Positions 12,544-27,250 of a DNA stretch of 39,125 nt are shown here, in pieces. Below the pieces are notes generated by a model. That model was not told where the DNA came from, made no database searches, and saw only the letters and a list, made by a program, of their open reading frames with translations. How positions within the stretch are numbered: the first letter of the stretch is position 1; every line of letters begins with the position of its first letter. The translations under genes were made by a program, and so were the position numbers. The DNA is taken from IMG/VR virus record IMGVR_UViG_3300031565_000139, positions 1 through 39,125 of that record; one strand, given 5' to 3'. This DNA is from a virus.

Positions 12544-12632
12544 TATTTTTAAGTTAATTTTAAATCTTTAAATAATTTGATGATTACTTACTTATATATA
12601 GTATTTTATATATGTTTATTTATATATAAATG

Positions 12633-12833
12633 TTATAGGGCATTTAAAGCCATTCTAACATCTTCCCAATATTTATGAGTTGATTTATTTTGGTCAATAA
12701 ACCAAGTTGGGTTTGAGTTCAATATTTCTTCTACTGCTATCAATGCGCACGTTTTTGCTGTTTTGCTATCAACATTACCATGTGTGTAGTACATTTTATT
12801 TGCTAATTCTACTGCTTTATCCTGTGGTGTCAT
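12633..12833 (-). CDS. Hypothetical protein, 66 aa (cassette gene)
   Basis: Unrecognised, mostly helical small protein beginning MTPQDKAVELANKMYY. The gene is enclosed by inverted repeats: GTTATAGGGC at 12632-12641 and GCCCTATAAC at 12844-12853. An attC-like hairpin lies on its 5' side. It appears to be one of five single-gene cassettes in the early region. Confidence 0.6.
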   Translation of the reverse strand: MTPQDKAVELANKMYYTHGNVDSKTAKTCALIAVEEILNSNPTWFIDQNKSTHKYWEDVRMALNAL

Positions 12834-12842
12834 AATTTAAAA

Positions 12843-12977
12843 CGCCCTATAACAATGTATATTATTCAGTGGCGTTATAGTGCTTAGTTTTAACCACTGT
12901 GCAGTCTTGCTAGTTTGTCGGTATGCGAAAAGTCCTGCAATCAATCGCCACCGAAATCATATACTAAACGGTAGGCA
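12843..12977 (-). repeat. attC-like imperfect hairpin, site 1
   Basis: Arms 12853-12874 and 12946-12967 pair as GTATATnATT..GTGGCG with a loop of about 71 nt. Outside the stem, 3-5 unpaired bases separate it from GCCTACC on one side and GTTATAG on the other. This is the R-spacer-L layout of integron attC sites, in the gene direction. It lies between the stop of the 61-aa gene and the start of the 66-aa gene. Confidence 0.65.
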
Positions 12978-12986
12978 CAATAAAAA

Positions 12987-13172
12987 TTACTGCTTTCGTG
13001 CCATCATTCGGACGCATTCTTCTTTCATCATTTTTAGCCCACTTGCTTTCGTAACATCAGCAGAATAATCTTCACCAGACTTGTATTTTCGGATTATCTC
13101 TTTTTCAAGTTCTTTCAGTTCTTTATCGTACTCTAAAAACTGTTCGTGTATCATTTTAATTAATTCGCTCAT
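12987..13172 (-). CDS. Hypothetical protein, 61 aa
   Basis: Unrecognised charged helical protein (MSELIKMIHEQFLEY..., ending CVRMMARKQ). The DNA at its two ends is mirror-like: upstream TAGGCACTTTTAAAATTAC and downstream GTAATTTTTATTGTGCCTA. This suggests it too has been mobilised as a unit. Its downstream 25 bp recur after the 135-aa gene at 22.75 kb. Confidence 0.55.
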   Translation of the reverse strand: MSELIKMIHEQFLEYDKELKELEKEIIRKYKSGEDYSADVTKASGLKMMKEECVRMMARKQ

Positions 13173-13204
13173 TTTATACCGTAATTTTAAAAGTGCCTAA
13201 ATTA

Positions 13205-13420
13205 TTATGTCAATGATTTCCAATGGGTTGGCAATCTAAAATCTACCGTTCCACTAGCATTTTGTTTAATGCTAAAACTTCCATTTTCTCGCATTCTTCC
13301 AATACTTACCCATCCTTCACGTTCTGGAGCACCAACACCAGTTATTAAGTGCTGTAATTCTACCAACTCGTTTATAGGTGGTTTACTTTTTTCTAAACTT
13401 CTAAATCCGTTATATGCCAT
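13205..13420 (-). CDS. Hypothetical protein, 71 aa
   Basis: Unrecognised. Begins MAYNGFRSLEKSKPP; the centre GVGAPEREGWVSIGRM and C-terminal FRLPTHWKSLT suggest a small beta domain. Followed after the stop by TTTAGGCAC, part of the mirrored sequence flanking the next gene. Confidence 0.5.
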   Translation of the reverse strand: MAYNGFRSLEKSKPPINELVELQHLITGVGAPEREGWVSIGRMRENGSFSIKQNASGTVDFRLPTHWKSLT

Positions 13421-13440
13421 AATTTTTACTAATCATATAT

Positions 13441-13821
13441 TTATAGGGAATTTAAAAAACGCTGCGGAATAATCCAGTATCCATTTAATGAAGTGCCATA
13501 TAATTTTCTGCAATCATTAATCAACGTTCTATCAAATTTACCTTTAACAACCCTGCCATTTGGTAGTTTATATTTCTTTTTCGTCTGTACGATAATTGAT
13601 AAATCATTTCCTAATGCATCAACTATAAATGGAGTTCCATAATCAATTAACGTATCTAAAGTTATTTTTGATTTATCCATTTTAAAAAACTCAATATCAT
13701 CAATAGAATGCCCTTCTTTCATTGGCGCATTTGGGTTTTTATTCCAGTTCCTTTGAAAATCTTCATCTTTTAAAGTTTTCAAAAAATCTATTAATTCTTT
13801 GTATTTTATTTCGTATTTCAT
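13441..13821 (-). CDS. Hypothetical protein, 126 aa
   Basis: Unrecognised soluble alpha/beta protein. The C-terminal half is basic (KKKYKLPNGRVVKGKFDRT) and could bind nucleic acid. It lies 5 bp after the NinG-like gene, so the two are probably cotranslated; a recombination-related role is possible but unproven. Confidence 0.5.
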   Translation of the reverse strand: MKYEIKYKELIDFLKTLKDEDFQRNWNKNPNAPMKEGHSIDDIEFFKMDKSKITLDTLIDYGTPFIVDALGNDLSIIVQTKKKYKLPNGRVVKGKFDRTLINDCRKLYGTSLNGYWIIPQRFLNSL

Positions 13822-13826
13822 AATTA

Positions 13827-14291
13827 TTATTTTACTTCAAACATTTTTCCTTTTGCCAATTCTTTTACTTTTCCCTTGTAAATTTCTATTATTTCAATCA
13901 TTAAAAATCTATCCTCTGGGAATTTTTCACGTTTTGAAATTAAGGCCAATTGATTTAATTTATCAAATCGCTCATCTCCTATTTTATTTCTTAAATTAAT
14001 AGCATAAGATGCAAAATCGTGTCCATAACAATTATCTTGCAATGATTGCAAATGAACATTATCTTCGTTAAATTCTAATGCTTTATACTTACCAGCTGCA
14101 AAAAAATGACCTGCCTGAGCTTCTTTAGTTCCATATCTCAAAGGTTTCCCAGTCGCAATGCAATTCCCATGACCGTTATCATCTGTATCTCTTAATCGGA
14201 TAAACTTATGAAACCATTTTTTTGCTGTTCGATGCAAAGATGAATAACTTTTATTTTTATATTTATTTATTTGGTTTGTATTTAAATTCAT
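13827..14291 (-). CDS. ninG: NinG/Rap-like recombination nuclease
   Basis: 154 residues matching the lambda NinG (Rap) family, structure-specific endonucleases acting on recombination intermediates. Seen: a basic N-terminal helix with HKFIRLRD (near 28-35), then GNCIATGKPLRYG, EAQAGHFFAAGKY (near 58-70) and DNVHLQSLQDNCYGHDFASY, containing the conserved Cys/His/Asn residues of the family. The first zinc-binding Cys cluster of longer NinG proteins is reduced. Neighbours are a NinB-like gene and small genes, like the nin region of lambdoid phages. Confidence 0.85.
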   Translation of the reverse strand: MNLNTNQINKYKNKSYSSLHRTAKKWFHKFIRLRDTDDNGHGNCIATGKPLRYGTKEAQAGHFFAAGKYKALEFNEDNVHLQSLQDNCYGHDFASYAINLRNKIGDERFDKLNQLALISKREKFPEDRFLMIEIIEIYKGKVKELAKGKMFEVK

Positions 14292-14297
14292 AATTTT

Positions 14298-14507
14298 TTA
14301 TTTAAACATTTCTAATATGTCATTATAACTCTGTTCAGATAGGGTATAATCAGTTCCATTTAACTTGTCTTCCAACCATTTAATATTAGGATGGTCTTTA
14401 TTTTTACGAAAAATAACCCTAGCATTAACCCATCTTTCCCAGCATGCTAATTGTCTTATTGATACAGGGTCTTTGTAAATGTCAATTACTATTTGCCGTT
14501 TTGCCAT
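14298..14507 (-). CDS. Hypothetical protein, 69 aa
   Basis: Unrecognised small protein (MAKRQIVIDIYKDPV..., with ACWERWVNARVIFRK). It overlaps the upstream gene by 26 bp and ends 6 bp before the NinG-like start. Confidence 0.5.
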   Translation of the reverse strand: MAKRQIVIDIYKDPVSIRQLACWERWVNARVIFRKNKDHPNIKWLEDKLNGTDYTLSEQSYNDILEMFK

Positions 14508-14793
14508 TAATAATATGATTTATTTTATCAAGTTCTTTTTTTATAATATTGGCATATCCTTCCATCTGCCACGGTTCAATTAAACTTATATCTAATTGCC
14601 TAATTGATTTGCAAATGTAAATTAATCTATCTGATTGATTCATTTGTTCATCTGCCATGATTAACAGTTCTATAAATGTCTTACCGTCTATTTCTGATTT
14701 TAGCGAATGCCTTGTCATCAATTTAAATAACAAAAATAAACATAAAGTAAGTAAACAAACAATAGTAATTAATAATAGTTGTTGTAGTTCCAT
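14482..14793 (-). CDS. Membrane-anchored protein, 103 aa
   Basis: One N-terminal transmembrane helix (about residues 5-24, ending LFLLFKL) followed by a helical cytoplasmic tail. Not a recognised family. The start is preceded by the 21-bp element at 14811-14831 and the leader ATTAAATATTAAAAAATG. Confidence 0.55.
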   Translation of the reverse strand: MELQQLLLITIVCLLTLCLFLLFKLMTRHSLKSEIDGKTFIELLIMADEQMNQSDRLIYICKSIRQLDISLIEPWQMEGYANIIKKELDKINHIINGKTANSN

Positions 14794-14810
14794 TTTTTAA
14801 TATTTAATGA

Positions 14811-14831
14811 GTTGGGTATATACATGTGTTA
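14811..14831 (-). repeat. 21-bp intergenic element, copy 1
   Basis: One of six same-length copies of plus-strand GTTGkG..ATATACAGATGTTA. On the minus strand it reads TAAC-ACAT-GTATATAC-CCAAC, starting inside the terminal repeat of the 85-aa cassette and ending 17 bp before the ATG at 14793. GTATATAC is self-complementary. Confidence 0.7.
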
Positions 14832-15086
14832 TAAAGAATTGATGTTATCAATATATTCGTCAATTACCTTTATAACGTTTCCAAGTGCTTGAAATTTGCC
14901 AAATTCAAACATCTGCATAACTCTAATTTTAGGGTTGTCTTTTTCTTTTTCATACTTTTTATATTTTTCAGAATGTTCTTTCTTTTTTTGACATACATCA
15001 TTTCTTAATCTCAATAGATATATTACACTATCTGGCGGCTCATGGTTTAATTCTAAAACTTCTGCCATTGCTAAATTACCATCCAT
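14829..15086 (-). CDS. Hypothetical protein, 85 aa (cassette gene)
   Basis: Unrecognised charged helical protein with a Lys/Glu-rich centre (KKKEHSEKYKKYEKEKDN). Flanked by inverted repeats GTTATAAAGA (14828-14837) and TCTTTATAAC (15096-15105). An attC-like hairpin lies on its 5' side and the 21-bp element on its 3' side. Confidence 0.6.
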   Translation of the reverse strand: MDGNLAMAEVLELNHEPPDSVIYLLRLRNDVCQKKKEHSEKYKKYEKEKDNPKIRVMQMFEFGKFQALGNVIKVIDEYIDNINSL

Positions 15087-15097
15087 AATATAAACTC

Positions 15098-15184
15098 TTT
15101 ATAACACGGTGTAAAATGACCATGCTGTTAACAGCCGTTTTAATTTGAATCATTTTCGCTTGCACGGCATTTACACAAGCGTTA
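15098..15184 (-). repeat. attC-like imperfect hairpin, site 2
   Basis: Arms GTGTAAAATGACCATGC (15109-15125) and GCACGGCATTTACAC (15162-15176) pair with one bulged base, then 3-4 unpaired bases lead to GTTA/TAAC ends. The stop codon of the 92-aa gene is part of the TAAC box. The loop holds a perfect palindrome, GCTGTTAACAGC. Confidence 0.7.
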
Positions 15185-15460
15185 AATAATCTTACTCATC
15201 TGGCCATCATCTACAAATATTCTGATAGGTGAAACATAAACATTTAATCCAATAATTGCATCATCATTATTAAATGCTATATTAGTTGTAACTTGTTCAG
15301 GATTTTTGTTTTCTTGAACTATTCCTATCCATTTATGATTTCCAGAATCAAAGCTACCATTATCCATTACAAAACCTGCTTTCCTAAATGCTTTATCCAT
15401 TAAATCATATAGAGTTGTTTCCTGTAACTTCCCATCTATATCTTTTATATATATTTCCAT
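15182..15460 (-). CDS. Hypothetical protein, 92 aa
   Basis: Unrecognised, probably a small alpha/beta protein (MEIYIKDIDGKLQETTL...). No membrane segment. It starts 9 bp after the 71-aa gene, so the pair is likely cotranslated. Confidence 0.5.
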   Translation of the reverse strand: MEIYIKDIDGKLQETTLYDLMDKAFRKAGFVMDNGSFDSGNHKWIGIVQENKNPEQVTTNIAFNNDDAIIGLNVYVSPIRIFVDDGQMSKII

Positions 15461-15469
15461 AATATAAAT

Positions 15470-15685
15470 TTAATCATTTAAATTTAAGGAACCAATAAAA
15501 TTATTATCTCTATCAGATTCATCTTTTATTTTACAGATTTCGGCAAGTTCCTTTTCGCCTTCATCTACTAAATTCTTTAATAACTTTATTTTAGCTACTC
15601 TTCCATCATTTATTACCTGGAACTTGTATTGATGCCTTAATTCAGATAATGCTTTTAATTTTTGAATTATTATGTTATTTTCCAT
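15470..15685 (-). CDS. Hypothetical protein, 71 aa
   Basis: Unrecognised helical protein with alternating Lys and Glu, perhaps a coiled coil. Preceded by a copy of the 21-bp element and the leader ATTAAAATATTAAAAAATG, almost the same leader as the genes at 14793 and 26733. Confidence 0.5.
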   Translation of the reverse strand: MENNIIIQKLKALSELRHQYKFQVINDGRVAKIKLLKNLVDEGEKELAEICKIKDESDRDNNFIGSLNLND

Positions 15686-15707
15686 TTTTTAATATTTTAA
15701 TGTTAGG

Positions 15708-15728
15708 GTTGTGGACATATAGATGTTA
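15708..15728 (-). repeat. 21-bp intergenic element, copy 2
   Basis: A diverged copy (GTTGTGGACATATAGATGTTA). The last three bases overlap the stop codon of the 68-aa gene; the 71-aa gene starts 22 bp beyond the other end. Confidence 0.6.
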
Positions 15729-15932
15729 ACGGTTATTTAAGATAGGTATTGCGCCAAATATAGCAGAAGCAGTTCCAATCAACATTACCCACCAACATTT
15801 CATAAATACTTGCATTTGTGTTAATTCTGGATTCATTGTCCAATATACAAACGGTGTTAATATACATACTACAAAAACAACCGTTAACAAAATGTATAGC
15901 GCATTGCGCAAGCCTTTTAATAATTTTTTCAT
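15726..15932 (-). CDS. Small membrane protein, 68 aa
   Basis: Two predicted transmembrane segments (about residues 11-31 and 45-63) after a basic N-terminus MKKLLKGLR. Unrecognised; a holin-like or membrane-modifying role cannot be excluded, but it lies in the early region. An 88-codon ORF in another frame over the same DNA is rejected. Confidence 0.6.
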   Translation of the reverse strand: MKKLLKGLRNALYILLTVVFVVCILTPFVYWTMNPELTQMQVFMKCWWVMLIGTASAIFGAIPILNNR

Positions 15933-15969
15933 AATATTTAAAGTTTTTAATTATTAATAAAATTTCTAC

Positions 15970-16008
15970 GTATTCGATGGCGCAACGAACGCCATACATA
16001 AATCGTTA
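15970..16008 (-). repeat. Short attC-like hairpin
   Basis: ATGGCG (15977-15982) and CGCCAT (15990-15995) form a stem with a 7-base loop; GTTA (16005-16008) contains the stop codon of the 86-aa gene, with five bases between them. It resembles the left half of the longer sites with the variable loop lost. Confidence 0.45.
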
Positions 16009-16266
16009 ATCATTTATATATAAATTAATAATATCATTTTCATTAAAAAATATAGACCATATCATTAATGCCATGCTTAATTTAACCAATAAACTAAATG
16101 CATAACTAAATGACAAGTCAGAACAATTACCAATTACTTTAATTATTGATTGTTCTGGTTGCTCAGTTTTTAAGGATAAAAATTTTACATTTATTTTATT
16201 TTCATTCATGGCAATTTTAACCTTCAATGCAAGGTATTTAATTATTGTTATTTGTTTTCCTGTCAT
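16006..16266 (-). CDS. Hypothetical protein, 86 aa
   Basis: Unrecognised. Hydrophobic stretch near residues 55-74 (AFSLLVKLSMALMIWSIFF) may be a membrane helix. Its ATG overlaps the stop of the 59-aa gene (ATGA). Confidence 0.5.
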   Translation of the reverse strand: MTGKQITIIKYLALKVKIAMNENKINVKFLSLKTEQPEQSIIKVIGNCSDLSFSYAFSLLVKLSMALMIWSIFFNENDIINLYIND

Positions 16267-16442
16267 ATCCCTATGTTTTTAACATTTATTATTTCATAAT
16301 TTATCATCTTTGGGTGTTTGACTCTTAGATGAGTTGTAAGAACTTTTTTCGCATGCGTTAAGTCTATCACTTTATCAATGTTAATTGATTTGTCTATGCG
16401 CTTGTTTTTGTACTTTAAACGGTAATTAATTGATAGTTTCAT
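16263..16442 (-). CDS. Small basic protein, 59 aa
   Basis: Found by direct reading: ATG at 16442, TGA at 16263, 59 residues, MKLSINYRLKYKNKRIDK...NVKNIGI. Highly basic N-terminal half; no family recognised. The 4-bp ATGA overlap with the next gene and the leader AATTATAGATATG support it. Confidence 0.65.
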   Translation of the reverse strand: MKLSINYRLKYKNKRIDKSINIDKVIDLTHAKKVLTTHLRVKHPKMINYEIINVKNIGI

Positions 16443-16454
16443 ATCTATAATTTA

Positions 16455-16649
16455 TTAATCAATAAATTTTGTACTCTTTACCTGAATTACTATTTCATCC
16501 CTTACATTGTCTATTACATCTAACTGTATAGACTCTTGCTCTTCTATTGGAAGTTCTTTAAACTCTTTATATGTCATTCCAAAACAGTCTTCAATGTCAA
16601 TTACATCTACCGTTAATTGTTCCCAGCTTATTATAAATTTTGTCTTCAT
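16455..16649 (-). CDS. Hypothetical protein, 64 aa
   Basis: Small acidic protein. I prefer the ATG at 16649 (MKTKFIISWEQL) over the one at 16673, since AAAGGAAATGAA precedes it. It is the first gene after the promoter at 16689. The leader is nearly the same as that of the gene at 17418. Confidence 0.55.
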   Translation of the reverse strand: MKTKFIISWEQLTVDVIDIEDCFGMTYKEFKELPIEEQESIQLDVIDNVRDEIVIQVKSTKFID

Positions 16650-16686
16650 TTCATTTCCTTTTAAATTAAACATTAATTGTTTGTGA

Positions 16687-16766
16687 TGTAAAGATACAGC
16701 CTTTCGGAACTGGAAACTATGATATTTATCATGTTTTTGAATTGTTTGTGTTAATAAGTGTTAAAA
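16687..16766 (-). promoter_or_regulatory. Early promoter with dyad operator (copy A)
   Basis: -7 box TATCTTTA (complement of 16689-16696) and a perfect dyad ATGATATTTATCAT (16719-16732) centred 33 bp upstream of it. Further up lies TTTTAACACTTATTAACAC (16748-16766). The whole 80 bp recurs at 25505-25584 with only seven differences, and two of these change the dyad symmetrically. Confidence 0.7.
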
Positions 16767-16775
16767 TTATTTTAA

Positions 16776-16796
16776 GTTGGGGATATACAGATGTTA
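16776..16796 (-). repeat. 21-bp intergenic element, copy 3
   Basis: GTTGGGGATATACAGATGTTA, directly joined to the terminal repeat of the 91-aa cassette (GTTAGCGGTTA from 16793). Confidence 0.7.
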
Positions 16797-16800
16797 GCGG

Positions 16801-17076
16801 TTATTGGTGAGATATTAAACCACCTGCGTTATTTGGGTCTAAATACAAGCGTTCACCTTTTTTAAAATCTGAGGTGTTAACATCCGTAATAACATGCTCA
16901 ATTTGTGGTTTCATTCTTAATAACCTCCTAATCCATCCACATTTTAATTTGCATCTACCTACCTGTAGTACGAAGTCATTTTCATCTTTTATATAGCAAA
17001 GTTCGCCCTCTTTAAATGCTATTCCTGTATTGTTTTTAACCTTAATTAACTTTTCCATATCTATAAGTAATAACAA
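16801..17076 (-). CDS. Hypothetical protein, 91 aa (cassette gene)
   Basis: Small beta-rich protein: FKEGELCYIKDENDFVLQVGRCKLKCGW suggests an SH3-like barrel, then a basic helix and GERLYLDPNNAGGL near the end. Start could be residue 7 (MEKLIKVKNN). Flanked by AACCGCTAAC (17075-17084) and GTTAGCGGTT (16793-16802), with an attC-like hairpin on the 5' side and the 21-bp element on the 3' side. Confidence 0.6.
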   Translation of the reverse strand: MLLLIDMEKLIKVKNNTGIAFKEGELCYIKDENDFVLQVGRCKLKCGWIRRLLRMKPQIEHVITDVNTSDFKKGERLYLDPNNAGGLISHQ

Positions 17077-17177
17077 CCGCTAACAAGCGGTCATAGTTAA
17101 TAAAGCCAATTAAGTTTTGTTCGTTGTAGGTTGCAGTGTGGGTGGCTTTACTAACCATACCGCCAGCCGTTAGCGGT
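17075..17177 (-). repeat. attC-like imperfect hairpin, site 3
   Basis: The clearest site. The arms ACCGCTAAC-AA-GCGGTCATAG..TAAAGCCA (17076-17108) and TGGCTTTACTAACCATACCGC-CAGCC-GTTAGCGGT (17143-17177) pair over about 30 bp. The two sides differ in the length of the spacer between outer and inner stems, as in attC folding with an unpaired central spacer. It follows the stop of the 78-aa gene. Confidence 0.75.
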
Positions 17178-17181
17178 AATG

Positions 17182-17418
17182 CTAATCAGCCTTAAATGAG
17201 TTTAATATTTCAATTATCTGTAATCGCTTCTTAAACATCTCACCACTATTAATATTTGGTGTTACTGGGCAAAAATAGCTAATCAATAGCGGTATAAATT
17301 CATTTAGCAAAGCACTATCGTTCAAATTAAATAAACCCAATAACTCACCTGCTACGGCTTCATTATTGTATCCATATTTTTTACCGTCTTTTAGTATTTT
17401 AATGATTTGTTCTTTCAT
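17182..17418 (-). CDS. Hypothetical protein, 78 aa
   Basis: Unrecognised helical protein (MKEQIIKILKDGKKYGYN...), with a winged-helix-like start. It follows dnaB after 46 bp; the leader matches that of the gene at 16649 over about 30 bp with one mismatch. Confidence 0.55.
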   Translation of the reverse strand: MKEQIIKILKDGKKYGYNNEAVAGELLGLFNLNDSALLNEFIPLLISYFCPVTPNINSGEMFKKRLQIIEILNSFKAD

Positions 17419-17464
17419 TTCCTTTTAATTTAAACATTAATTGTTTGTGTTGTTTTATTACTTG

Positions 17465-18829
17465 CTAAAAATTCGGCTCAATACCTTCTGTATAATCAAA
17501 GGGCATGGAACTACTTAAACTATTTAATTCTTCAAATGGAAGCTCTCCTATATATGACCATTCAGTATTTTTGTAAAAAGATGTTGAACCCAAAGCACCA
17601 TTCCTATTTTTTGCTATTATCACATCAATTAAATTAATAACGCTTTGACCTTCATAATCTTCGTGTATCCCATAATACTCAGGCCTATGAAGAAACATAA
17701 CTACGTCCGCATCTTGTTCGATATTCCCAGAATCCCTTAAATCTGACAGTATTGGTCTTTTGTCTCCACTTCTTTGCTCAACAGCTCTACTCAATTGCGC
17801 CAACGCTATAACTGGACAATCACATTTTTTTGCCAATCCTTTTAAGTTTTTAGAAATATGACCTACTTTGTCATTCGTTGAATTGCCACCACCTGAGTGA
17901 TTAATCAATTGTAAATAATCAACAATAATTAAACCGATTTTACCTTTCGACAATTCTTTTAAACTTGATGCTCTAATTTGCTCAACCGTTAAACCTGAAT
18001 CATCATTAATAATAATTGGTATTTTTGCAAAGTTACCAGATTTATTTAACAATGAATCCCATTGATACGATTCTAAATTACCAGCCTGTAAATTATTACT
18101 ATTAATATTCGTTTCTAAAGATATAGCTCTATCGACTAACCTTTCTTTTTGCATTTCAAGACTAAAATACAACACTTTCTCACCTTCTAAAGCGGCATTT
18201 TTCGCAAACAATAAACTTATAGCAGTCTTACCCATTGACGGCCTAGCAGCTAATATAATCAAGTCCCCAGATTGCCAGCCATTAGTAATTTTATTTAGTT
18301 TTGAATGGCCTGTGTTCTTCCCTAATAATTTGCCTGGTTCAACAGACTCATAAGTTTCTAGTCGTTTTTTTACTACTTCATAAATGTGTGTAGTATCACC
18401 ACTTGCAATATTAAATAAATCTTCAAGTGTGGTTGTAACTTTAATGTTTGTTTCTTGAATGTCGTTTGACCGGTCAGATAGTTTTACAATCTCTTCATTA
18501 AATAAAGTGATTAAATGTGTCCGGATGTAATTCTCTTTTAAAATTCTGATATGCTCATCATAATTATAACCGCTTGCAACTTCACTTGTTAAGCTTGCGA
18601 TATAATAAGCTCCGCCAATTTCTTCTAATTCTGTTTTACTAAAAGCGTTTACAACAGTTAATAAATCTATCTTGTGCCCTTTGGTGTATAAGTTTTTAAT
18701 ACAATTGTAAACTAGCTTGTTAACATGTGTAGTAAACAAATTACTATCCATTTCAGATATAACTTGTTCCTGATATTCTGGAATAGCTAAAATAGTTCCT
18801 AGTAATATTTTTTCGGTTTTATCTATCAT
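17465..18829 (-). CDS. dnaB: Replicative DNA helicase (DnaB-like)
   Basis: 454 residues, close to full-length bacterial DnaB. An N-terminal helical domain (1-110) that binds primase or loader is followed by the RecA-like motor. Seen: ARPSMGKTA (Walker A, near 197-205), YFSLEM (near 225), IGLIIVDYLQL (Walker B, near 300), and SDLRDSGNIEQDADVVMFLHR with the arginine-finger region near 370-390. It unwinds phage DNA at the fork. It overlaps the initiator/loader gene by 4 bp (ATGA), so the two are cotranslated. Confidence 0.95.
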   Translation of the reverse strand: MIDKTEKILLGTILAIPEYQEQVISEMDSNLFTTHVNKLVYNCIKNLYTKGHKIDLLTVVNAFSKTELEEIGGAYYIASLTSEVASGYNYDEHIRILKENYIRTHLITLFNEEIVKLSDRSNDIQETNIKVTTTLEDLFNIASGDTTHIYEVVKKRLETYESVEPGKLLGKNTGHSKLNKITNGWQSGDLIILAARPSMGKTAISLLFAKNAALEGEKVLYFSLEMQKERLVDRAISLETNINSNNLQAGNLESYQWDSLLNKSGNFAKIPIIINDDSGLTVEQIRASSLKELSKGKIGLIIVDYLQLINHSGGGNSTNDKVGHISKNLKGLAKKCDCPVIALAQLSRAVEQRSGDKRPILSDLRDSGNIEQDADVVMFLHRPEYYGIHEDYEGQSVINLIDVIIAKNRNGALGSTSFYKNTEWSYIGELPFEELNSLSSSMPFDYTEGIEPNF

Positions 18830-19488: not shown

Positions 19489-19490
19489 AT

Positions 19491-20367: not shown

Positions 20368-20396
20368 ACTTTTTCAAATTTACAATGTTATTTAAT

Positions 20397-21047: not shown

Positions 21048-21080
21048 TGTATTTCTAAATTAAATTCATATCCTTAGTTA

Positions 21081-21356
21081 TCACTTGCATCTTTCTTCTT
21101 GAATTTTAATATTTTTAATTAACTCTTTTTCAATATCTACATTATTATGAATCAATAAATTCATAGTTACGCATATCAGATCAATTGCCTCTTGTTTATA
21201 ATTATTCTGTTTACCTTTAATTAATTTAAGTAGCTCAGTCGAAAGTTCCCCTTTTTCTTCATTAATCTTATTTGAGAACTCATAAAGTTCTGTGTTAGGT
21301 GTTATCAAGCCACGTTTAACTATGGCCTGATAATGTTGTTTGAATAGTTTTTTCAT
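21081..21356 (-). CDS. MazG-like nucleotide pyrophosphohydrolase
   Basis: 91 residues, all-helical. EEKGEL near residue 34 and QEAIDLI near 56 fit the EExxE...ExxD metal-binding pattern of MazG-type NTP pyrophosphohydrolases. Phage versions adjust nucleotide or (p)ppGpp pools. It overlaps the DnaA-like gene by 4 bp (ATGA). Confidence 0.65.
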   Translation of the reverse strand: MKKLFKQHYQAIVKRGLITPNTELYEFSNKINEEKGELSTELLKLIKGKQNNYKQEAIDLICVTMNLLIHNNVDIEKELIKNIKIQEERCK

Positions 21357-21814: not shown

Positions 21815-21880
21815 AGTTTTTTTTATTTTAAAAAATATACGTTGATATGGTGTTGTGTGTATATAAGTGTTGTAGTGCAT

Positions 21881-22180
21881 TTAGAATCCAATCATCGTTG
21901 AATCTACTGGTGGGTAGTACCACATCCATTTAGTTTCGTTCTCTGGCTCGTCATAGTCAACTAAGGTGTCAGTGTGGAAACGCCACTGCATACTTTCAAA
22001 GCAAAAATAAGCCACCCCTTGCACGTTATTTTCGTCAATTATGCAAACATCTTCACTAAATGTAATATCGTCTTTACTTTGTTTAGGCTTATTTTTTTCG
22101 GGGTCAAATAAACGCACTACAACATTATGTAAAGTGCATGGCTGTTCGGTTTTTGAATTTTTTGTACTCATATCAATCAT
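21881..22180 (-). CDS. Hypothetical protein, 99 aa
   Basis: Unrecognised beta-rich protein; start may be the Met at residue 4 (MSTKNSKTEQPCT). Trp-rich C-terminus (ETKWMWYYPPVDST). No membrane segment. Lies between the repressor cassette and the DnaA-like gene. Confidence 0.55.
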   Translation of the reverse strand: MIDMSTKNSKTEQPCTLHNVVVRLFDPEKNKPKQSKDDITFSEDVCIIDENNVQGVAYFCFESMQWRFHTDTLVDYDEPENETKWMWYYPPVDSTMIGF

Positions 22181-22213
22181 TATTTAAGTTTTAAAACTAT
22201 GTAGCTTTTATTA

Positions 22214-22253
22214 GGCAGCCACGACACCATACATTTAACGTTAGCCGTAATTA
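22214..22253 (-). repeat. Half attC-like site after the repressor gene
   Basis: Minus strand: GGCTAAC, five bases, then ATGTATGGTGTCGTGGCTGCC, like the left arm of the complete sites but without a clear right arm. The terminal repeat 22240-22253 matches the other end of the repressor cassette. Confidence 0.5.
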
Positions 22254-22538
22254 AAAGAAACATTCCACCAATGAATCAACGGCAGGTTTTAATACTTTAA
22301 AATATTCAGCTTTTTCGGGTCTTATATCGCCTTCTTCAATTCCATACCAAAACAATATTGGCAAAGGTATTTCTAAGTAATTTGCAATTTTTTGTAATAC
22401 TTCGGTGCTTGGTTGTTTTTGGTCATTCTCAATTTGGCTCAAATAGGTTTGAGTAATGCCAATATTTTGAGCAAATAATTCTTGAATTTGTCGAGCTTTA
22501 TTTACTCTAAGTCTTTTAATTGATTGTCCTAATTTCAT
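22251..22538 (-). CDS. Xre-family transcriptional repressor (cassette gene)
   Basis: 95 residues with a clear HTH_3 domain near residues 5-60: SIKRLRVNKARQIQELFAQ, then ITQTYLSQIENDQKQPS and LEIPLPILFW, the usual Xre core. It would bind operator DNA as a dimer; with no integrase present it need not be a lysogeny repressor. It has its own strong promoter. The gene and promoter together are bounded by GTTAGCCGTAATTA (22240-22253) and TAACTACGGCTAAC (22609-22622). Confidence 0.8.
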   Translation of the reverse strand: MKLGQSIKRLRVNKARQIQELFAQNIGITQTYLSQIENDQKQPSTEVLQKIANYLEIPLPILFWYGIEEGDIRPEKAEYFKVLKPAVDSLVECFF

Positions 22539-22561
22539 ATAATTATCGTTTTAAATTTAAC

Positions 22562-22592
22562 CAAAGGTAATATATATTTCTAATAATACAAA
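22562..22592 (-). promoter_or_regulatory. Promoter of the Xre repressor gene
   Basis: TTTG (complement of 22589-22592), 19 bp, then TACCTTTG (22562-22569): an exact match to the Bacteroidota consensus. It lies inside the cassette boundaries, so the gene would stay expressed after transfer. Confidence 0.75.
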
Positions 22593-22613
22593 TTTAATTG
22601 ATAGATATTAACT

Positions 22614-22745
22614 ACGGCTAACAATGTATAAAAATAATAGCCGTTTCGGTGGTAATTTTAAAGTATCGTGCAACGTTGTAAAGTCCAGTAGGTTGATAGT
22701 TTTTCGCTCGCAATCGGCTACTATTCTTATACCAACGGTAGGCAC
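22614..22745 (-). repeat. attC-like imperfect hairpin, site 4
   Basis: Arms 22626-22643 and 22715-22732 pair as TATAArAATArTAGCCG, with a loop of about 70 nt. Outer boxes are GCCTACC and GTTAGCC, separated from the stem by 3-5 bases. The left 25 bp (to 22759) are identical to the same position at site 1. Confidence 0.7.
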
Positions 22746-22772
22746 AATAAAAATTACTTGCCTTTCAGTATC

Positions 22773-23180
22773 TCATTTTGCTCTACCACATTCCAAAATA
22801 GAAGTCATCAAATCAAACTTCCATGTACTTTTCATGAAATGATTAATATTATCATACTTTTTATGAACTCTTTTCATATTATCAACACCTGTCCGTTTTA
22901 CCATATAATAATATTCTGCACTTTTTAAATAAACAGGTTCTAATTTATCTAAAATTTTAAAAAGTATTTCCTTGTACTCATTGTCGATAATATACCCATT
23001 TTCATTGCATCTAATGAATATTTTTGTTATCTCGTATAAATTGCCTTGCTGCACGTCTCTAAATTCGTCAGTGGTCATGTAATTGCGCTTTATCTTATCA
23101 CAAAAATTTGCTTTATGGTCAAATTGTTCATGTTGCTCTGTTTCTCTTTTATCGAGAAAAAATTTATTTGATGCTCCCAT
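22773..23180 (-). CDS. Hypothetical protein, 135 aa
   Basis: Unrecognised helical protein, many Lys, Tyr and Glu. It starts 2 bp after the Rad52-like gene, so it may assist recombination or single-strand DNA handling. Start could also be Met35 (MTTDEFRD). Confidence 0.5.
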   Translation of the reverse strand: MGASNKFFLDKRETEQHEQFDHKANFCDKIKRNYMTTDEFRDVQQGNLYEITKIFIRCNENGYIIDNEYKEILFKILDKLEPVYLKSAEYYYMVKRTGVDNMKRVHKKYDNINHFMKSTWKFDLMTSILECGRAK

Positions 23181-23182
23181 AG

Positions 23183-23680
23183 TTATTTTTTTGCGTATGT
23201 GAATACTCTATCTCTCGTTTTTAAATTTATAATAGCTAATCCAGTTATTATTCCTTTTTCAACCTTTATTGCTTCTACTTCAAATTTGTCAAAAGTCGAA
23301 TATTTATCACCTCGTTTTTCAATCTTCATCTTATCTTTATTGATGTAGATAAATGGAGCTGTATAAAGTTCCCGACCTATCCCCCAATTAAAACAAGCAC
23401 GTTTAAACGAATCGCTTGCGAGTCCTTTTGCCTTTTCTGTGAAGCTTTCAGCTCCAGTATCTTCTTTTTGTACCCATTCCTTTTTTTCAGTACAGTAAAT
23501 CGAAACTATACAATTTGCATTGTCTTTTAAATGATGTCTTTGCCAGTGCATATTGCCTACTGTTTCATCAAGTATGTTCATATCACATCTTGCATTCTTA
23601 TAAAGCAAAAATGATGCACCTTTTTCGGTTATAGATGCAACTCTTATTTCAATTTCATCTGGTTTTAAATCTCTAAACAT
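23183..23680 (-). CDS. Rad52/22-like single-strand annealing protein
   Basis: 165 residues of the phage Rad52/Rad22 annealing family, which pairs complementary single strands in recombination and replication. Seen: RVASITEKGASFLLYKNARCDMNIL start region, MHWQRHH near 43-49, and the hallmark AKGLASDSFKRACFNWGIGR (near 88-107) followed by ELYTAPFIYI. Likely works with the NinB- and NinG-like proteins. Second gene after promoter 23886. Confidence 0.8.
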   Translation of the reverse strand: MFRDLKPDEIEIRVASITEKGASFLLYKNARCDMNILDETVGNMHWQRHHLKDNANCIVSIYCTEKKEWVQKEDTGAESFTEKAKGLASDSFKRACFNWGIGRELYTAPFIYINKDKMKIEKRGDKYSTFDKFEVEAIKVEKGIITGLAIINLKTRDRVFTYAKK

Positions 23681-23690
23681 AGTTGTATTT

Positions 23691-23867
23691 TTATTGGTTA
23701 TTTATTTCATCTATTAAGAGGGCTAATTGCTCTCTAATGTCTTGTAATTTTATTCCCGGTTCACCTGATAATTTAAATAATTCAGCTAATAAGTCGGTAA
23801 CTATATCAGCATTACCGTTCAAACATATATATTTTATTTCAATTCTTAATTCTTCCAGTAACTTCAT
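23691..23867 (-). CDS. Hypothetical protein, 58 aa
   Basis: Found by direct reading: ATG at 23867, TAA at 23691. Acidic helical protein, MKLLEELRIEIKYICLNG...LLIDEINNQ. It lies between the promoter at 23886 and the Rad52-like gene, 10 bp upstream of the latter. Confidence 0.65.
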   Translation of the reverse strand: MKLLEELRIEIKYICLNGNADIVTDLLAELFKLSGEPGIKLQDIREQLALLIDEINNQ

Positions 23868-23885
23868 AATATCGCTTTTGTCTTA

Positions 23886-23930
23886 CAAATATAACTATTA
23901 ATAAATTGAATAAACATGATAAAAGTCATG
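23886..23930 (-). promoter_or_regulatory. Early promoter with dyad operator (recombination operon)
   Basis: -7 box TATATTTG (complement of 23886-23893) and dyad CATGA-N6-TCATG (23915-23930), centred 33 bp from the -7 box: the same spacing as the promoters at 16689 and 25506, although the surrounding sequence differs. Confidence 0.7.
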
Positions 23931-23954
23931 GTTATAATAATATTTCTGCAAATG

Positions 23955-24206
23955 TTATTTAGCTAATTCTTTTGCTTTATCGTATACTAGCCATGTTCTT
24001 GTTCTTACTGTGTATATAAACTCTTCATGTTCATTTTCTGAATACATGTATGCTGCAGCATCGAATAATCCTTGTTCTACAACACATACTAAGTTCTCTT
24101 TAAATCTTTCATCTGTAATTACTGCGCCATCATTAATTAATGCTTGTACTTTACCAAGGTTTGGCAAAATTTCACCTTTACTATTTTTATTAATATAAAG
24201 TCCCAT
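23955..24206 (-). CDS. Hypothetical protein, 83 aa
   Basis: Unrecognised soluble protein (MGLYINKNSKGEILPNLGKVQALINDG...). The leader has AACTAAATAAATTACAATTATG. A hairpin-bearing spacer lies upstream. Confidence 0.5.
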   Translation of the reverse strand: MGLYINKNSKGEILPNLGKVQALINDGAVITDERFKENLVCVVEQGLFDAAAYMYSENEHEEFIYTVRTRTWLVYDKAKELAK

Positions 24207-24239
24207 AATTGTAATTTATTTAGTTAATTTTTAATTATA

Positions 24240-24345
24240 TTGCATTATACAAAGCGGCTGCATGGCACAATTTCAAAGCCCGATTGTTTTTTACTGGAAA
24301 CGATATAAACCGTTTTGTTTCTTATGCCGCTTTGGGTTTTTAAAT
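24240..24345 (-). repeat. Hairpin-bearing spacer, attC-like but atypical
   Basis: CAAAGCGGC (24251-24259) pairs with GCCGCTTTG (24326-24334), and an inner AAACG...CGTTT pair lies in the loop. The outer GTTA/TAAC boxes of the other sites are not clear here. Confidence 0.45.
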
Positions 24346-24498
24346 CTCAATCCTTTTGCCATTAACCATAAGCTTATTGTCAATTATGGTTAACTTAGCA
24401 TTGAATTTTAATAATAGGTCTTTAAGTTCAATTTCAAAACTTAATAAATCCATCCTTTTTGCTATCATTCTGCTCTTTTGTACTTGTTTTCTTGTCAT
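24340..24498 (-). CDS. Hypothetical protein, 52 aa
   Basis: Found by direct reading: ATG at 24498, TAA at 24340, starting MTRKQVQKSRMIAKRMD, basic then acidic, likely helical. It is preceded by GGGAGGAGCACAATG, a rare strong Shine-Dalgarno in this genome. It overlaps the ORF at 24434-24589 in another frame. Confidence 0.5.
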   Translation of the reverse strand: MTRKQVQKSRMIAKRMDLLSFEIELKDLLLKFNAKLTIIDNKLMVNGKRIEI

Positions 24499-24589
24499 TG
24501 TGCTCCTCCCTTTGAATTTGTTTTTTTACTCTGCGTTTATTCCTTTTAGATAAATTAAAGGAACTTAAAATAATTTCAAATCTTGACAT
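24434..24589 (-). CDS. Hypothetical protein, 51 aa (overlapping ORF)
   Basis: ATG at 24589, TGA at 24434, starting MSRFEIILSSFNLSKRNKR, strongly basic then Lys/Asp-rich. The 65-bp overlap with the next gene in another frame means one of the two may be untranslated; the Shine-Dalgarno of the next gene lies within it, so translational coupling is possible. Confidence 0.4.
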   Translation of the reverse strand: MSRFEIILSSFNLSKRNKRRVKKQIQREEHNDKKTSTKEQNDSKKDGFIKF

Positions 24590-24715
24590 CCTATTTAATT
24601 TAAGTTAAAAAAATAGTAACTATTAAAAAAAATATACCTGATATAATGCTTAATAATAATAAAAATTCTAATATTGATTTTAGTGCTTTCATAATTATAA
24701 TTTATTTAGTTATTT

Positions 24716-24817
24716 TTTATTTTGTTTCGAAACTTTTTTGTTTAGTGCTTTTGCCTGTTCATCAATTAGCTTAGTTTCTTTTGCTAATTGCTGTAAGTTT
24801 TTTAGTAGATTTTTCAT
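24716..24817 (-). CDS. Small coiled-coil peptide, about 33 aa
   Basis: Starts at 24817 with a 4-bp ATGA overlap with the 65-aa gene. MKNLLKNLQQLAKETKLID reads as an amphipathic helix. Very short, supported mainly by the tight overlap; the exact end is less certain. Confidence 0.45.
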
Positions 24818-25011
24818 AATTTTTTGTTTTTAGTTTCATAACTGAAGCCCATCGGCTGATAAACCTCGGCAAACTTTGTTACTGCAGTTGAAAAATTAGC
24901 CCAGGCACTTATCACTTTTGGGCTTAGTTCTTTAAGTTCTTTATTTGTGGTACTTACATTGGCTTTAATTGCTGCCATTTCTGAATGATTCATTAATTTT
25001 GGTGTTTTCAT
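24814..25011 (-). CDS. Hypothetical protein, 65 aa
   Basis: Unrecognised helical protein (MKTPKLMNHSEMAAIKANVS...). It lies 11 bp after the 152-aa gene in the same operon. Confidence 0.5.
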   Translation of the reverse strand: MKTPKLMNHSEMAAIKANVSTTNKELKELSPKVISAWANFSTAVTKFAEVYQPMGFSYETKNKKL

Positions 25012-25022
25012 AGTTGTAAATT

Positions 25023-25481
25023 TTAATGATTGATACTATTTTTTTCAATGAATGATTTTAAAATACTGATTCTTAATTTTAAACCATTTAATTCTTCATT
25101 CATATCTTTAAATGATTTTACAGTTTCAGAATATGGAAACTGCCCTTTAAAGTCCCCGATCTCGTAATTACTTTTAACTACTCTATATAGGTCGAAAGGT
25201 ATCATTATGGACTTGCCATTTATGAAATTATAAAAGTCCACGGAAATTATAGTTATTCTCTTTTTATGAGAATTTGAAAATGTTACATTTTTTATAAATC
25301 GGTATTTTATGTCAATCCCGAATAAATGCTCATATAATTTTGCATTTTTTATAACAAGCCGTTTTAACTTGGTTTTTGTGACAATATTAAAATTTTGGAA
25401 GGATTGGTTTATGCTACCTTTCAAACTAGCTTTTAAAAAATATTTGTCTATAAACTTATTTGTTAATTTTAAAGTATCCAT
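25023..25481 (-). CDS. Hypothetical protein, 152 aa
   Basis: I place the start at 25481 (MDTLKLTNKFID); the longer frame to 25550 would run through the promoter and operator. Unrecognised, basic, beta-rich centre (IKYRFIKNVTFSNSHKKRITIISVDF split by turns) and a helical C-terminus. First gene after promoter copy B. Confidence 0.55.
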   Translation of the reverse strand: MDTLKLTNKFIDKYFLKASLKGSINQSFQNFNIVTKTKLKRLVIKNAKLYEHLFGIDIKYRFIKNVTFSNSHKKRITIISVDFYNFINGKSIMIPFDLYRVVKSNYEIGDFKGQFPYSETVKSFKDMNEELNGLKLRISILKSFIEKNSINH

Positions 25482-25504
25482 AGCTTTTTTATTTATTAAT
25501 GTAC

Positions 25505-25584
25505 TGTAAAGATACAGCCTTTCGGAACTGGAAACTATGACATATGTCATGTTTTTGAATTATTATTGTTAATAAGTGTTAAAA
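25505..25584 (-). promoter_or_regulatory. Early promoter with dyad operator (copy B)
   Basis: Near-duplicate of 16687-16766, 73 of 80 bases equal. -7 box TATCTTTA (complement of 25506-25513), dyad ATGACATATGTCAT (25537-25550). Relative to copy A, paired changes at mirrored positions keep the dyad perfect. Confidence 0.7.
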
Positions 25585-25630
25585 GTTTTGCTTTTCAAAT
25601 GGCCAATATTCTTACAATATCCATTGTGCT

Positions 25631-25828
25631 TCATTTGCCAGCACTATTTAGTGTTTCTTCAAGCAATTCGTTATATAGGATGTTGCATTTATTCCTCTGT
25701 TCTTGCCAATCATTAAATAAATTCATAAGGTCGTAATTTTCAGTTTGTAAAATCATACCCATCAACTTGACTTCTAATTCATTTAGTTTTGATACTTGTG
25801 ATTTGTGTTGTTCTTCTAATTTTGTCAT
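25631..25828 (-). CDS. Hypothetical protein, 65 aa
   Basis: Unrecognised; charged helical, probably a coiled coil (MTKLEEQHKSQVSKLNELEVKL). Preceded by the 21-bp element, copy 4. Confidence 0.5.
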   Translation of the reverse strand: MTKLEEQHKSQVSKLNELEVKLMGMILQTENYDLMNLFNDWQEQRNKCNILYNELLEETLNSAGK

Positions 25829-25843
25829 AATATTTAATTATTA

Positions 25844-25864
25844 GTTTGGTATATACAGATGTTA
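25844..25864 (-). repeat. 21-bp intergenic element, copy 4
   Basis: GTTTGGTATATACAGATGTTA; the GTTA end continues as GTTAGCGTTA, next to the stop of the 109-aa gene. Confidence 0.7.
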
Positions 25865-25873
25865 GCGTTAATG

Positions 25874-26203
25874 CTAAGTACGCTCTATTGGTCGCCATTC
25901 TACAATATGCGAAATAATACTATCATCTTTTTCGGCAAAATCACAGAATTTACTTCCGTCAATTATACCTTCATAAGTTCTAGCTATATAAATATTTCCA
26001 AATTTATTTTTTGCTAAAACAAAATCACTTCTTTTCCCATCCCATTCGCCAGTTTCATAAGCCAATGGGCTTTCATCTTCTGTTTTTATCCATTCATTTG
26101 CAAAATTGAATCCTTCCCTAAAATGTGATACATAATCCCCAGAGAAATAATAATCATCATCTCTTTGATATACTTCTTTTTCTGCTTCTTTTACTGTTTT
26201 CAT
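25874..26203 (-). CDS. DUF551-like protein, 109 aa
   Basis: Residues 35-105 (WIKTEDESPLAYETGEWDGKRSDFVL... ISHIVEWRPIE) fit the small DUF551 type found in many phages: W-x-x-x-x-E-x-P at the start and a terminal HWxP-like motif, here VEWRP. Function of the family is unknown. It lies 12 bp after the 82-aa gene. Confidence 0.6.
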   Translation of the reverse strand: MKTVKEAEKEVYQRDDDYYFSGDYVSHFREGFNFANEWIKTEDESPLAYETGEWDGKRSDFVLAKNKFGNIYIARTYEGIIDGSKFCDFAEKDDSIISHIVEWRPIERT

Positions 26204-26215
26204 TTTTTTTAATTA

Positions 26216-26464
26216 TTAGTTGGGTCGTTCTTTACTATTTTCATCCGCAAAATCCTCCATCATTGCAAGTAGCGTATCAATTTTATTTAAGTCTGGCTCT
26301 TCCTTTTCAATCTCTTCTTTTGCGTTTAAATACAACATGTGCATATAACTTTTATGTCCTTTGAAGCCAAATACAGTACTTATCGTATGTTGCATTTCAA
26401 AAGCTGCCACGCTAATAGTAAAAAACTTACGTAGTGCATCAATTTTATTAAGTATATTATTCAT
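26216..26464 (-). CDS. Hypothetical protein, 82 aa
   Basis: Unrecognised helical, acidic protein. Its leader shares ACGGATTTGAAACAC with the terminase operon leader. Its last codons (DRPN-like end, CCCAACTAATAATTAAAA) run into the leader of the next gene. Confidence 0.5.
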   Translation of the reverse strand: MNNILNKIDALRKFFTISVAAFEMQHTISTVFGFKGHKSYMHMLYLNAKEEIEKEEPDLNKIDTLLAMMEDFADENSKERPN

Positions 26465-26523
26465 AGTATTTAAGTTTTGTGTTTCAAATCCGTAAAATTA
26501 CATGCCATACCAAAACAGTTATA

Positions 26524-26733
26524 TTAAATTGTGAAATCCTTAATAATTATTTCAATATTTAATGCTTTTGCAACTTTTTCTACACTCTCAATTGATGCAG
26601 TACCTTTAAACACATTGTTAATTGTGCTTAATGATAGGCCTGCAACTTCTGCAAGTTCATATTTCTTTATCCACATGTCAGATATTTCTATTTGATGGTT
26701 AATTGCTTTTAATAAATGTTCTTTTGTTTTCAT
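26524..26733 (-). CDS. Helix-turn-helix regulator, 69 aa
   Basis: Xre/HTH_3-type: KYELAEVAGLSLSTINNVFKG (near 24-44) is a clear helix-turn-helix and VEKVAKALNIEIIIKDF completes the domain. Small size suggests a Cro-like protein. It follows the 21-bp element, copy 5. Confidence 0.7.
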   Translation of the reverse strand: MKTKEHLLKAINHQIEISDMWIKKYELAEVAGLSLSTINNVFKGTASIESVEKVAKALNIEIIIKDFTI

Positions 26734-26746
26734 TTTTTAATTGTTA

Positions 26747-26767
26747 GTTGTGTATATACAGATGTTA
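26747..26767 (-). repeat. 21-bp intergenic element, copy 5
   Basis: GTTGTGTATATACAGATGTTA, continuing as GTTATGCGC, the terminal repeat of the 108-aa cassette. Confidence 0.7.
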
Positions 26768-26774
26768 TGCGCAA

Positions 26775-27101
26775 TTAGAGCCACTTACTAGCAACGCCAA
26801 TTATTCGAAACGTAAATTTAAGTATTTGTATAAATTCATTAATGTTAGTTATTTCATTCATATTTTCATAAATAGCATTAGCCATAATTACCTCTTTCTC
26901 CGTTTCAAAAGCTAGGTTACTAATCATTTCAATAGTTGAATGATAATATTTAATCTCTCCTTTATCCCATTTTATTGATATATGAGGGTAATCATTTTTA
27001 AACGTGTCTGCAAAATGGCTTCTTACCATCATTCTCTCATTAAGGTTAAGACCTTTTTCTTCTAATAAATTCCATGCTTTGTCGTGAGTTTCTTGGTTCA
27101 T
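26775..27101 (-). CDS. Hypothetical protein, 108 aa (cassette gene)
   Basis: I place the start at 27101 (MNQETHDKAWNLLEEKG), after CTTAAAATT; the ATG at 27128 lies in the cassette terminal repeat. Unrecognised helical protein. Terminal repeats GTTATGCGC (26764-26772) and GCGCATAAC (27118-27126) enclose it; an attC-like hairpin is upstream and a 21-bp element downstream. Confidence 0.6.
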   Translation of the reverse strand: MNQETHDKAWNLLEEKGLNLNERMMVRSHFADTFKNDYPHISIKWDKGEIKYYHSTIEMISNLAFETEKEVIMANAIYENMNEITNINEFIQILKFTFRIIGVASKWL

Positions 27102-27117
27102 AATTTTAAGAATAAAA

Positions 27118-27250
27118 GCGCATAACAACAGCTATAAATAATAGCGGTTTTAGTGCCATACGCAAGGTTTGTAATATTAATTTAATTCATCTCGTTTTGA
27201 TAATTTGTGCTATTTATCCGCTACTATTCATAGCCAAACGTTATACATAA
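27118..27250 (-). repeat. attC-like imperfect hairpin, site 5
   Basis: GCTATAAATAATAGCGG (27131-27147) pairs with CCGCTACTATTCATAGC (27218-27234), 15 of 17 positions, loop of 70 nt. Four to five unpaired bases on each side lead to GTTATGCG and TATAAC boxes. Confidence 0.75.

Follow-up and report, generated by a model that had tools for sequence, protein, structure and literature searches.

Eight probable integron-type cassettes in a phage genome, and related arrays beside a short tyrosine recombinase

The window considered here is an IMG/VR virus record of 39,125 bases (IMGVR_UViG_3300031565_000139; all positions refer to the whole stretch), and phage families are matched by 6 of the 10 large minus-strand proteins scanned in it, including terminase, portal, tape-measure, DnaB-like helicase and methyltransferase. 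Eight integron-type cassettes have been identified in it (Table 1). On the plus strand each unit runs from a G/TT start (the slash marking the border) through an antisense open reading frame (ORF) and an R'' box, the complement of the unit's own start, to a hairpin and a final G. The 5' box is complementary to the R'' of its own attC over 9-10 nt in seven units and with one mismatch in the eighth. All eight ORFs lie on the minus strand, antiparallel to their own attC on the plus strand, whereas parallel genes are the usual state in integron cassettes; in three (cassettes 3, 5 and 8) the start codon even falls within the attC. Cassettes 5 and 6 form a tandem pair with a common border. The core GTTRRRY is not seen in these units, only GTTA/GTTG being conserved. 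A sequence-only reading of this DNA had described five such cassettes; all five (1, 2, 4, 6 and 7) are present with their inverted-repeat pairs where it had placed them, including the 108-aa gene at 26775 when ATG is taken as its start. Its count was too low by three, and the tandem pair, the opposed directions of ORF and attC and the recurring attI-like flank on the left go beyond it as well.

Table 1. Cassettes and attI-like sites of the window (R1 and R2, attC covariance models; strict finder, see text)
Feature	Positions	Strand of site	Inverted repeat	ORF (minus strand)	attC	Evidence and remarks
Cassette 1	12633..12970	+	12632/12853	12633-12833, 66 aa	~12844-12970, end G/GT	TTATAGGGC...AAACG; second occurrence in L126; R2 12846-12977, E=0.0012
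Cassette 2	14829..15181	+	14828/15105	14829-15086, 85 aa	~15096-15181	R2 15098-15188, E=0.0019
Cassette 3	15726..16005	+	15725/15888	15726-15932 (68 aa) or 15733-15999 (88 aa), either start within attC	~15879-16005	strict finder; R2 15881-16012, E=1.9e-4
Cassette 4	16794..17169	+	16793/17084	16801-17058 (ATG) or 16801-17076 (TTG)	~17075-17169	R1 E=7.7e-6; R2 E=4.4e-6; fold z -4.73
Cassette 5	21870..22240	+	21869/22123	21881-22180, 99 aa, start within attC	~22114-22240	first of tandem pair; R2 22116-22247, E=0.0017
Cassette 6	22241..22737	+	22240/22622	22251-22538, Xre/HTH_3	~22613-22737, end G/GT	directly behind cassette 5; R2 22615-22744, E=8.9e-6
Cassette 7	26765..27240	+	26764/27126	26775-27128 from TTG, 117 aa; 108 aa from ATG	~27118-27240	R2 27119-27247, E=1.1e-7
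Cassette 8	27904..28188	+	GTTACGCAC/GTGCATAAC, one mismatch	27904-28146, 80 aa, start within attC	~28063-28188	R2 28064-28195, E=1.5e-7
attI-like left flank	14809..14828	+				near GTTGGGTATATACAGATG/TTA
Further attI-like flank copies	ends 12632, 15725, 16793, 26764, 27903; 21869	+				21869 less alike
attI-like site	25842..25861	+				no recognisable attC behind; no model match E<1 nearby

For cassette 1, alone among those of the window, a second occurrence was found, in a viral contig from another sample (L126), with 97.6% identity from TTATAGGGC to AAACG; beyond both ends the two sequences are unrelated, with the breaks at G/TT. The shared unit continues beyond the second inverted repeat and stops behind the hairpin, which fixes the polarity, with attC on the plus strand and the ORF antisense. 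In the L126 contig six such units follow one another, and one of them carries a methyltransferase for which no plasmid relative was detected at E<=1e-5. The 66-aa protein of cassette 1 has one relative in the viral contigs and three records in the phage collection, and none in the genome collection. Among 119 full-length cassette pairs (at least 80% identity, near-copies of loci included), both flanks are kept in 96, one is unrelated in 8 and both are unrelated in 15, the last corresponding to 8 locus pairs and about five separate cases.

A strict finder, demanding an inverted repeat of at least 9 nt, paired arms and a GTT or GGT end, gave seven matches on the plus strand of the window and one on the minus strand, a shadow of the tandem pair, while 300 dinucleotide shuffles gave none in 260 cases, one in 35 and two in 5; when the C before the final G, true of all seven real matches, was demanded as well, 298 shuffles had none and 2 had one. 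Perfect 9-nt GTT inverted repeats spaced 120-500 nt number nine against 2.46 expected, and two of the nine are not cassettes. In all seven hairpins covered, one for each of seven cassettes, the complementarity of the arms stands above that of shuffled spacers (equalled by 0 to 17 of 1000 shuffles). Cassette 8 was revealed only by a covariance model, R2, trained on 141 attCs from 33 phage loci with no window or L126 sequence included. With filters off, over 12000-28500, R2 gives eight matches with E<=0.002, all on the plus strand and all at cassettes, the next best having E=1.5; the attC search suggested along with the sequence-only reading thus comes out in its favor. In five related phages (94 kb) R2 has no match up to E=1. 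Model R1, run with default filters, found one marginal match in 20 canonical-IntI loci versus 21 in 20 loci with the short integrase described below; with filters off the window attCs escaped it apart from one short, partial match, its exclusion of long loops being the probable reason. Alignment A2 was picked by arm score and its covariation is partly by construction; it was not used as proof. A later finder, also applied to the viral loci with an integrase, required C before the final G and an arm of at least 11, plus either an inverted repeat of at least 9 or an arm of at least 14; the model searches were run without these demands.

A repeated left flank precedes seven of the eight cassettes, cassette 6 instead following cassette 5, and it resembles the sequence preceding the first cassettes beside phage integrases, TATATATAATAG/TT. 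Seven of eight flanks lie within three mismatches of TATATACAGATGTTA (the one ending at 21869 excepted), and there are 13 such matches in the window against 4.1 expected. The attI-like site without an attC is either an empty site or a decayed cassette. A 15-base attI-like pattern matched at least 118 stretches in viral contigs, mostly chance by our reckoning, and among the matches listed the sole relevant contig (L016) shares a stretch of 4,032 identical bases with the window.

Several features of the surrounding sequence may be recorded here. The sequence GGTAGGCACAATAAAAATTACT is found directly behind cassettes 1 and 6 (12970-12994 and 22737-22761); these two cassettes end in G/GT, the remaining six in G/TT. 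An 80-base repeat with 92.5% identity (GATACAGCCTTTCGGAACTGGAAACTATGA...) at 16687-16766 and 25505-25584 is possibly a promoter region, and of the three copies of GTTAATAAGTGTTAAAA in the early region two lie shortly before attI-like sites. The segment 11200-12000 is almost free of ORFs and rich in TTTTT/AAAAA motifs, with two copies of TATAGGGGCTTACAGAGGG (~11390 and ~11895). In contig L119, a relative, the position behind dnaB that in the window is taken by the end of cassette 4, CG/TTAGCGGTAATGCTAA, has ACG/TTATGTAGTAATGCTAA after unrelated sequence (~4680, minus strand); the end of that contig is too near for a cassette to show. Polaribacter phage P12002L has two cassette starts with the same 50-base left flank, before 29237 and 37263, and so again more than one attI-like site in a phage with no integrase.

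The L126 methyltransferase led to a contig of an Aequorivita metagenome-assembled genome (MAG) with phage-type replication genes (L129), where a relative with 82% identity lies in a cassette array upstream of a 265-aa tyrosine recombinase; R2 places three attCs of this array on the strand expected for reversed ORFs. The recombinase scores 188.5 bits with the XerA model (cut-off 220) and 153.5 with the integron-integrase model (cut-off 265), below the cut-off in both cases. It aligns to IntI4 (2a3v) in two pieces, between which 37 of its residues stand opposite 85 of IntI4, and its predicted structure (pLDDT 91.3) matches both XerA and IntI4, with TM scores of 0.73-0.78 for the latter. Between two conserved motifs there are 53-56 residues in 62 phage enzymes and 54-67 in 35 short chromosomal ones, compared with 101 in 23 canonical IntI. 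The linked phage enzymes thus have ~47 residues fewer at the stretch where integron integrases carry the I2 region, and we take the missing segment to be that region. The sequence-only reading had guessed at a Bacteroidota variant, and this fits both the reduced core and the finding that arrays of this kind are accompanied by an enzyme other than a canonical IntI. The I2 helix has been described (PMC7790495) as a requirement for the capture of cassettes and as the event that gave rise to integron integrases.

The association of this short enzyme with cassettes recurs in the phages sampled. Eighty viral loci from IMG/VR were gathered by integrase similarity alone, 71 of them being distinct when the 400 bp ahead of the gene are compared, and phage families are matched by 16 of 20 large neighboring proteins (DNA polymerase, helicases, head morphogenesis and ribonucleotide reductase among them). 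Cassettes lie upstream of the ~265-aa recombinase in 57 of the 60 distinct loci having at least 400 bp upstream, and in 38 the first cassette is no more than 160 bp away from the matched start of the integrase. The 71 distinct loci hold 222 cassettes on the array strand and 3 on the other, and all 141 model matches in 33 short-integrase phage loci are on the array strand. The ORFs of the 222 are reversed in 196 cases, parallel in 1, ambiguous in 16 and absent in 9; the start codon falls within the attC in 67 of 188 reversed ORFs. As a control, 91 loci were gathered by other genes of the window phage (one of them, L299, is the phage of the window itself, taken outside the cassette region): there were 3 finder matches, and no model match in the 35 of these loci so searched. 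One of the finder matches, at 7408-8543 of a locus with a terminase relative of 56% identity (L304), may be a real reversed cassette, with an ORF of 338 aa.

In the chromosomes, represented by 296 genomes of the Aequorivita phylum, the short enzyme was matched at E<=1e-40 in 87 genomes and canonical IntI above its cut-off in 84. In 8 of 20 high-scoring short-enzyme loci the array starts 51-136 bp behind the 3' end of the gene and runs in its direction; in two of the 20 the contig stops within 250 bp of the gene. This layout, seen among loci L178-L197, is the opposite of that in the phages. The ORFs of the chromosomal short-enzyme loci are parallel to attC in 26 cases, reversed in 2, ambiguous in 1 and absent in 1, and those of canonical-IntI loci are parallel in 15 and reversed in 5. 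Since the chromosomal short-enzyme ORFs are mostly parallel, the reversal is, in these samples, a trait of the phages and not of the short enzyme.

Relatives of the short enzyme at E<=1e-20 occur in 34 phage records, most of them Polaribacter phages Freya, Leef and Danklef and Cellulophaga phage Ingeline, whose enzymes have 36-41% identity to it. Both ends of the array were compared in four of the ten Freya isolates (1, 2, 6 and 10), all isolated on a single host strain; for Freya_8 the comparison covered the attI side. Between the attI, ...TTATAGGGGTG/, and /TTGTAAACAATA there are 0, 842, 2216 and 4942 nt in Freya_1, 2, 6 and 10, respectively; the right border of the array is /TTGTAAAC, and genome length minus array is 43,978 in all four. 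The array of Freya_2 is exactly the last 842 nt of that of Freya_10, where it is preceded by ...ATACG/. When Freya_6 and Freya_10 are compared with Freya_1, and Freya_2 with Freya_10, only a few bases around G/TT are in common. Model matches in the Freya arrays are few and all on the expected strand; Leef has four below E=0.05 and Ingeline none. The main text describing these isolates (PMC8776804) gives genomes of 44.0-48.9 kb, and the words integron and cassette are absent from it.

The cargo was scanned in 63 cassette proteins: the 50 longest of 136 viral ones, 5 from L126, 2 from L129 and 6 from the window. They match 22 Pfam families, with methyltransferases best represented (4 N6_N4, 2 D12 and 2 C5); the first 25 of 112 PADLOC families consisted of methyltransferase models and one mads_2 model.

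Taken together, the eight window units are most likely integron-type cassettes of a phage-adapted, integron-like system lacking I2: cassette 1 recurs in unrelated surroundings with breaks at G/TT, the attC model matches at every cassette, and isolates with a related system show exact gain or loss. In one tested feature the strict definition of an integron fails, so the system is classed as a variant working like one. An attC hairpin would be cut at G/TT and joined to an attI-like G/TT site; the breakpoints are those observed, while the hairpin strand is presumably the one used and the short enzyme presumably the catalyst. Where an enzyme is encoded, it would be the ~265-aa Xer/IntI-like recombinase without the insertion that carries I2 in integron integrases. 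The attI lies immediately upstream of a phage gene, which in phages with an integrase is the integrase gene, so that a cassette would enter upstream of that gene. Being reversed relative to attC, the ORFs point the same way as the gene that follows attI, and each arrival would join the operon, with which the cassette genes would presumably be read. In the window the cassettes would have docked at several attI-like sites of an early region read from the minus strand, and the phage may borrow its enzyme from the host, from a co-infecting phage or from a missing part of its own genome. On a wider scale, the balance tips somewhat toward a large, mainly phage-borne integron lineage without I2, in which the attC cassettes of Bacteroidota phages are taken up and let go by a Xer-like recombinase, with a related type in the chromosomes of Bacteroidota and with the genes inverted to join the phage operon.

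One alternative, possible though rather doubtful, is that these are ordinary cassettes moved in trans by a canonical host IntI with I2, the phage being a passive carrier of a cluster of attC sites lacking an integron integrase (CALIN), like the phages of Qi et al. 2023. The lack of an integrase in the window, the frequency of canonical IntI in the sampled genomes of the phylum and the matches of R2 to canonical arrays all suit this, and IntI1 recombined 5 of 6 attCs of virulent phages, 1 of 2 from phage P12002L (in the relevant sections of PMC9892861), so that IntI1 could also act on attCs such as these. Against it, a canonical IntI query, run on the 80 viral loci, reached no more than 31% identity and matched the same kind of gene (selection of the loci by the short enzyme means that phages with any other enzyme lie outside the sample); ORFs in canonical loci are mostly parallel and those of the phages almost all reversed; and R1 with default filters separates the two kinds of loci in the way given above. 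It is improbable that the short recombinase is a plain prophage integrase beside arrays that vary by homologous recombination or through another enzyme and accumulate in a hypervariable region. XerA is indeed its best model, and possible temperate life was read from the integrase by the Freya authors (PMC8776804, in the parts that treat it), but the arrays start close to the integrase in the viral loci and on its other side in the chromosomal ones, the Freya differences are confined between two G/TT points with near-identical flanks, and the swapped cassettes have no flanking homology. Scarcely credible is a reading of the repeats as transposon-like terminal inverted repeats or terminator-like hairpins with no integron mechanics: every unit does have an inverted repeat and a hairpin, most hairpins being not unusually stable, yet the repeats match within a unit and differ between units, tandem units share borders, and the mobile unit ends at the hairpin rather than the second inverted repeat. 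For cassette 1 this reading was refuted by the second occurrence; miniature inverted-repeat transposable elements (MITEs) were also rejected.

Several observations weigh against the view of an I2-less, integron-like system. The window has no recognizable tyrosine recombinase or integrase, and catalysis by the short enzyme is an inference. No relative of the window with an empty site was found in searches through DnaB, the methyltransferase, terminase and gene 23183. The total fold energy (minus strand) stands out in only 2 of 8 hairpins, with z of -3.31 and -4.73 and -1.30 to +0.25 for the others; of the hairpins described in the sequence-only reading the arm complementarity was borne out, while the energies are in part what that reading had itself named as counting against it. 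With default filters R2 detected none of the window attCs, and R1 detected one well and one partly. R2 also matches canonical-IntI arrays (13 matches in five loci, the best 5e-4), and therefore recognizes attC broadly and cannot separate the classes. On an attI profile the attI-like sites of the window rank 2nd to 147th of 78,220 positions, not above the shuffle maxima. For the tandem array of L129 the finder alone chose the opposite-strand reading. Slippage is another possible source of the difference between Freya_1 and Freya_2, as TTGTAAACAA is present at both borders; few Freya attCs were recognized, with one finder cassette (ORF reversed) each in Freya_2, 6 and 10 and two model matches below E=0.05 in the whole Freya_10 array.

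The system resembles IntI/attI/attC integrons in the cassette unit, the R''/R' box rule, the attC hairpin, the G/TT breakpoint, an attI beside the integrase gene and tandem arrays; it differs in an integrase without the I2-bearing insertion, a GTTA/GTTG core without RRRY and, in the phages, ORFs antiparallel to attC. The full platform, attI and array beside an integrase, is seen in the related phages, whereas the window has attI-like sites and no integrase. Recombinases of the XerA/XerC/XerD type are like the short enzyme in size and fold and provide its closest sequence models; Xer enzymes act at dif sites, whereas the short enzyme adjoins cassette arrays. Spirochaete-type reverse integrons, whose integrase is a full IntI, share an unusual order of integrase and array. 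There, as described in portions of PMC9668308, it is the intI gene that is reversed, and here the cassette ORFs. CALINs in phages are already known (Qi et al. 2023, PMC9892861), and P12002L is likewise an integrase-less phage with attCs, having four model matches, all on the plus strand, adjoining methyltransferase and Mom-like genes on the minus strand. The sections of that paper on P12002L speak of divergent attC directions, and do not describe the reversal rule, the repeated attI-like flanks or the short integrase. Searches of the open PMC literature (preprints not covered) turned up no report of the I2-less enzyme, of reversed cassette ORFs or of attI-like docking sites that recur within one phage.

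The cassette system accounts exactly for the differences in genome length among four isolates of one phage species. With arrays changing at G/TT beside an enzyme without the I2 insertion, the necessity of I2 becomes directly testable, and in phages that have already been isolated. An I2-less lineage, if such it is, would either recombine hairpins by a solution independent of I2 or preserve, as a relic, the state that preceded the acquisition of I2. Phages would then own a gene-swapping platform, with DNA methyltransferases, possibly protecting against restriction, among its cargo; it appears that they operate their own form of the machinery through which antibiotic resistance genes are known to spread.

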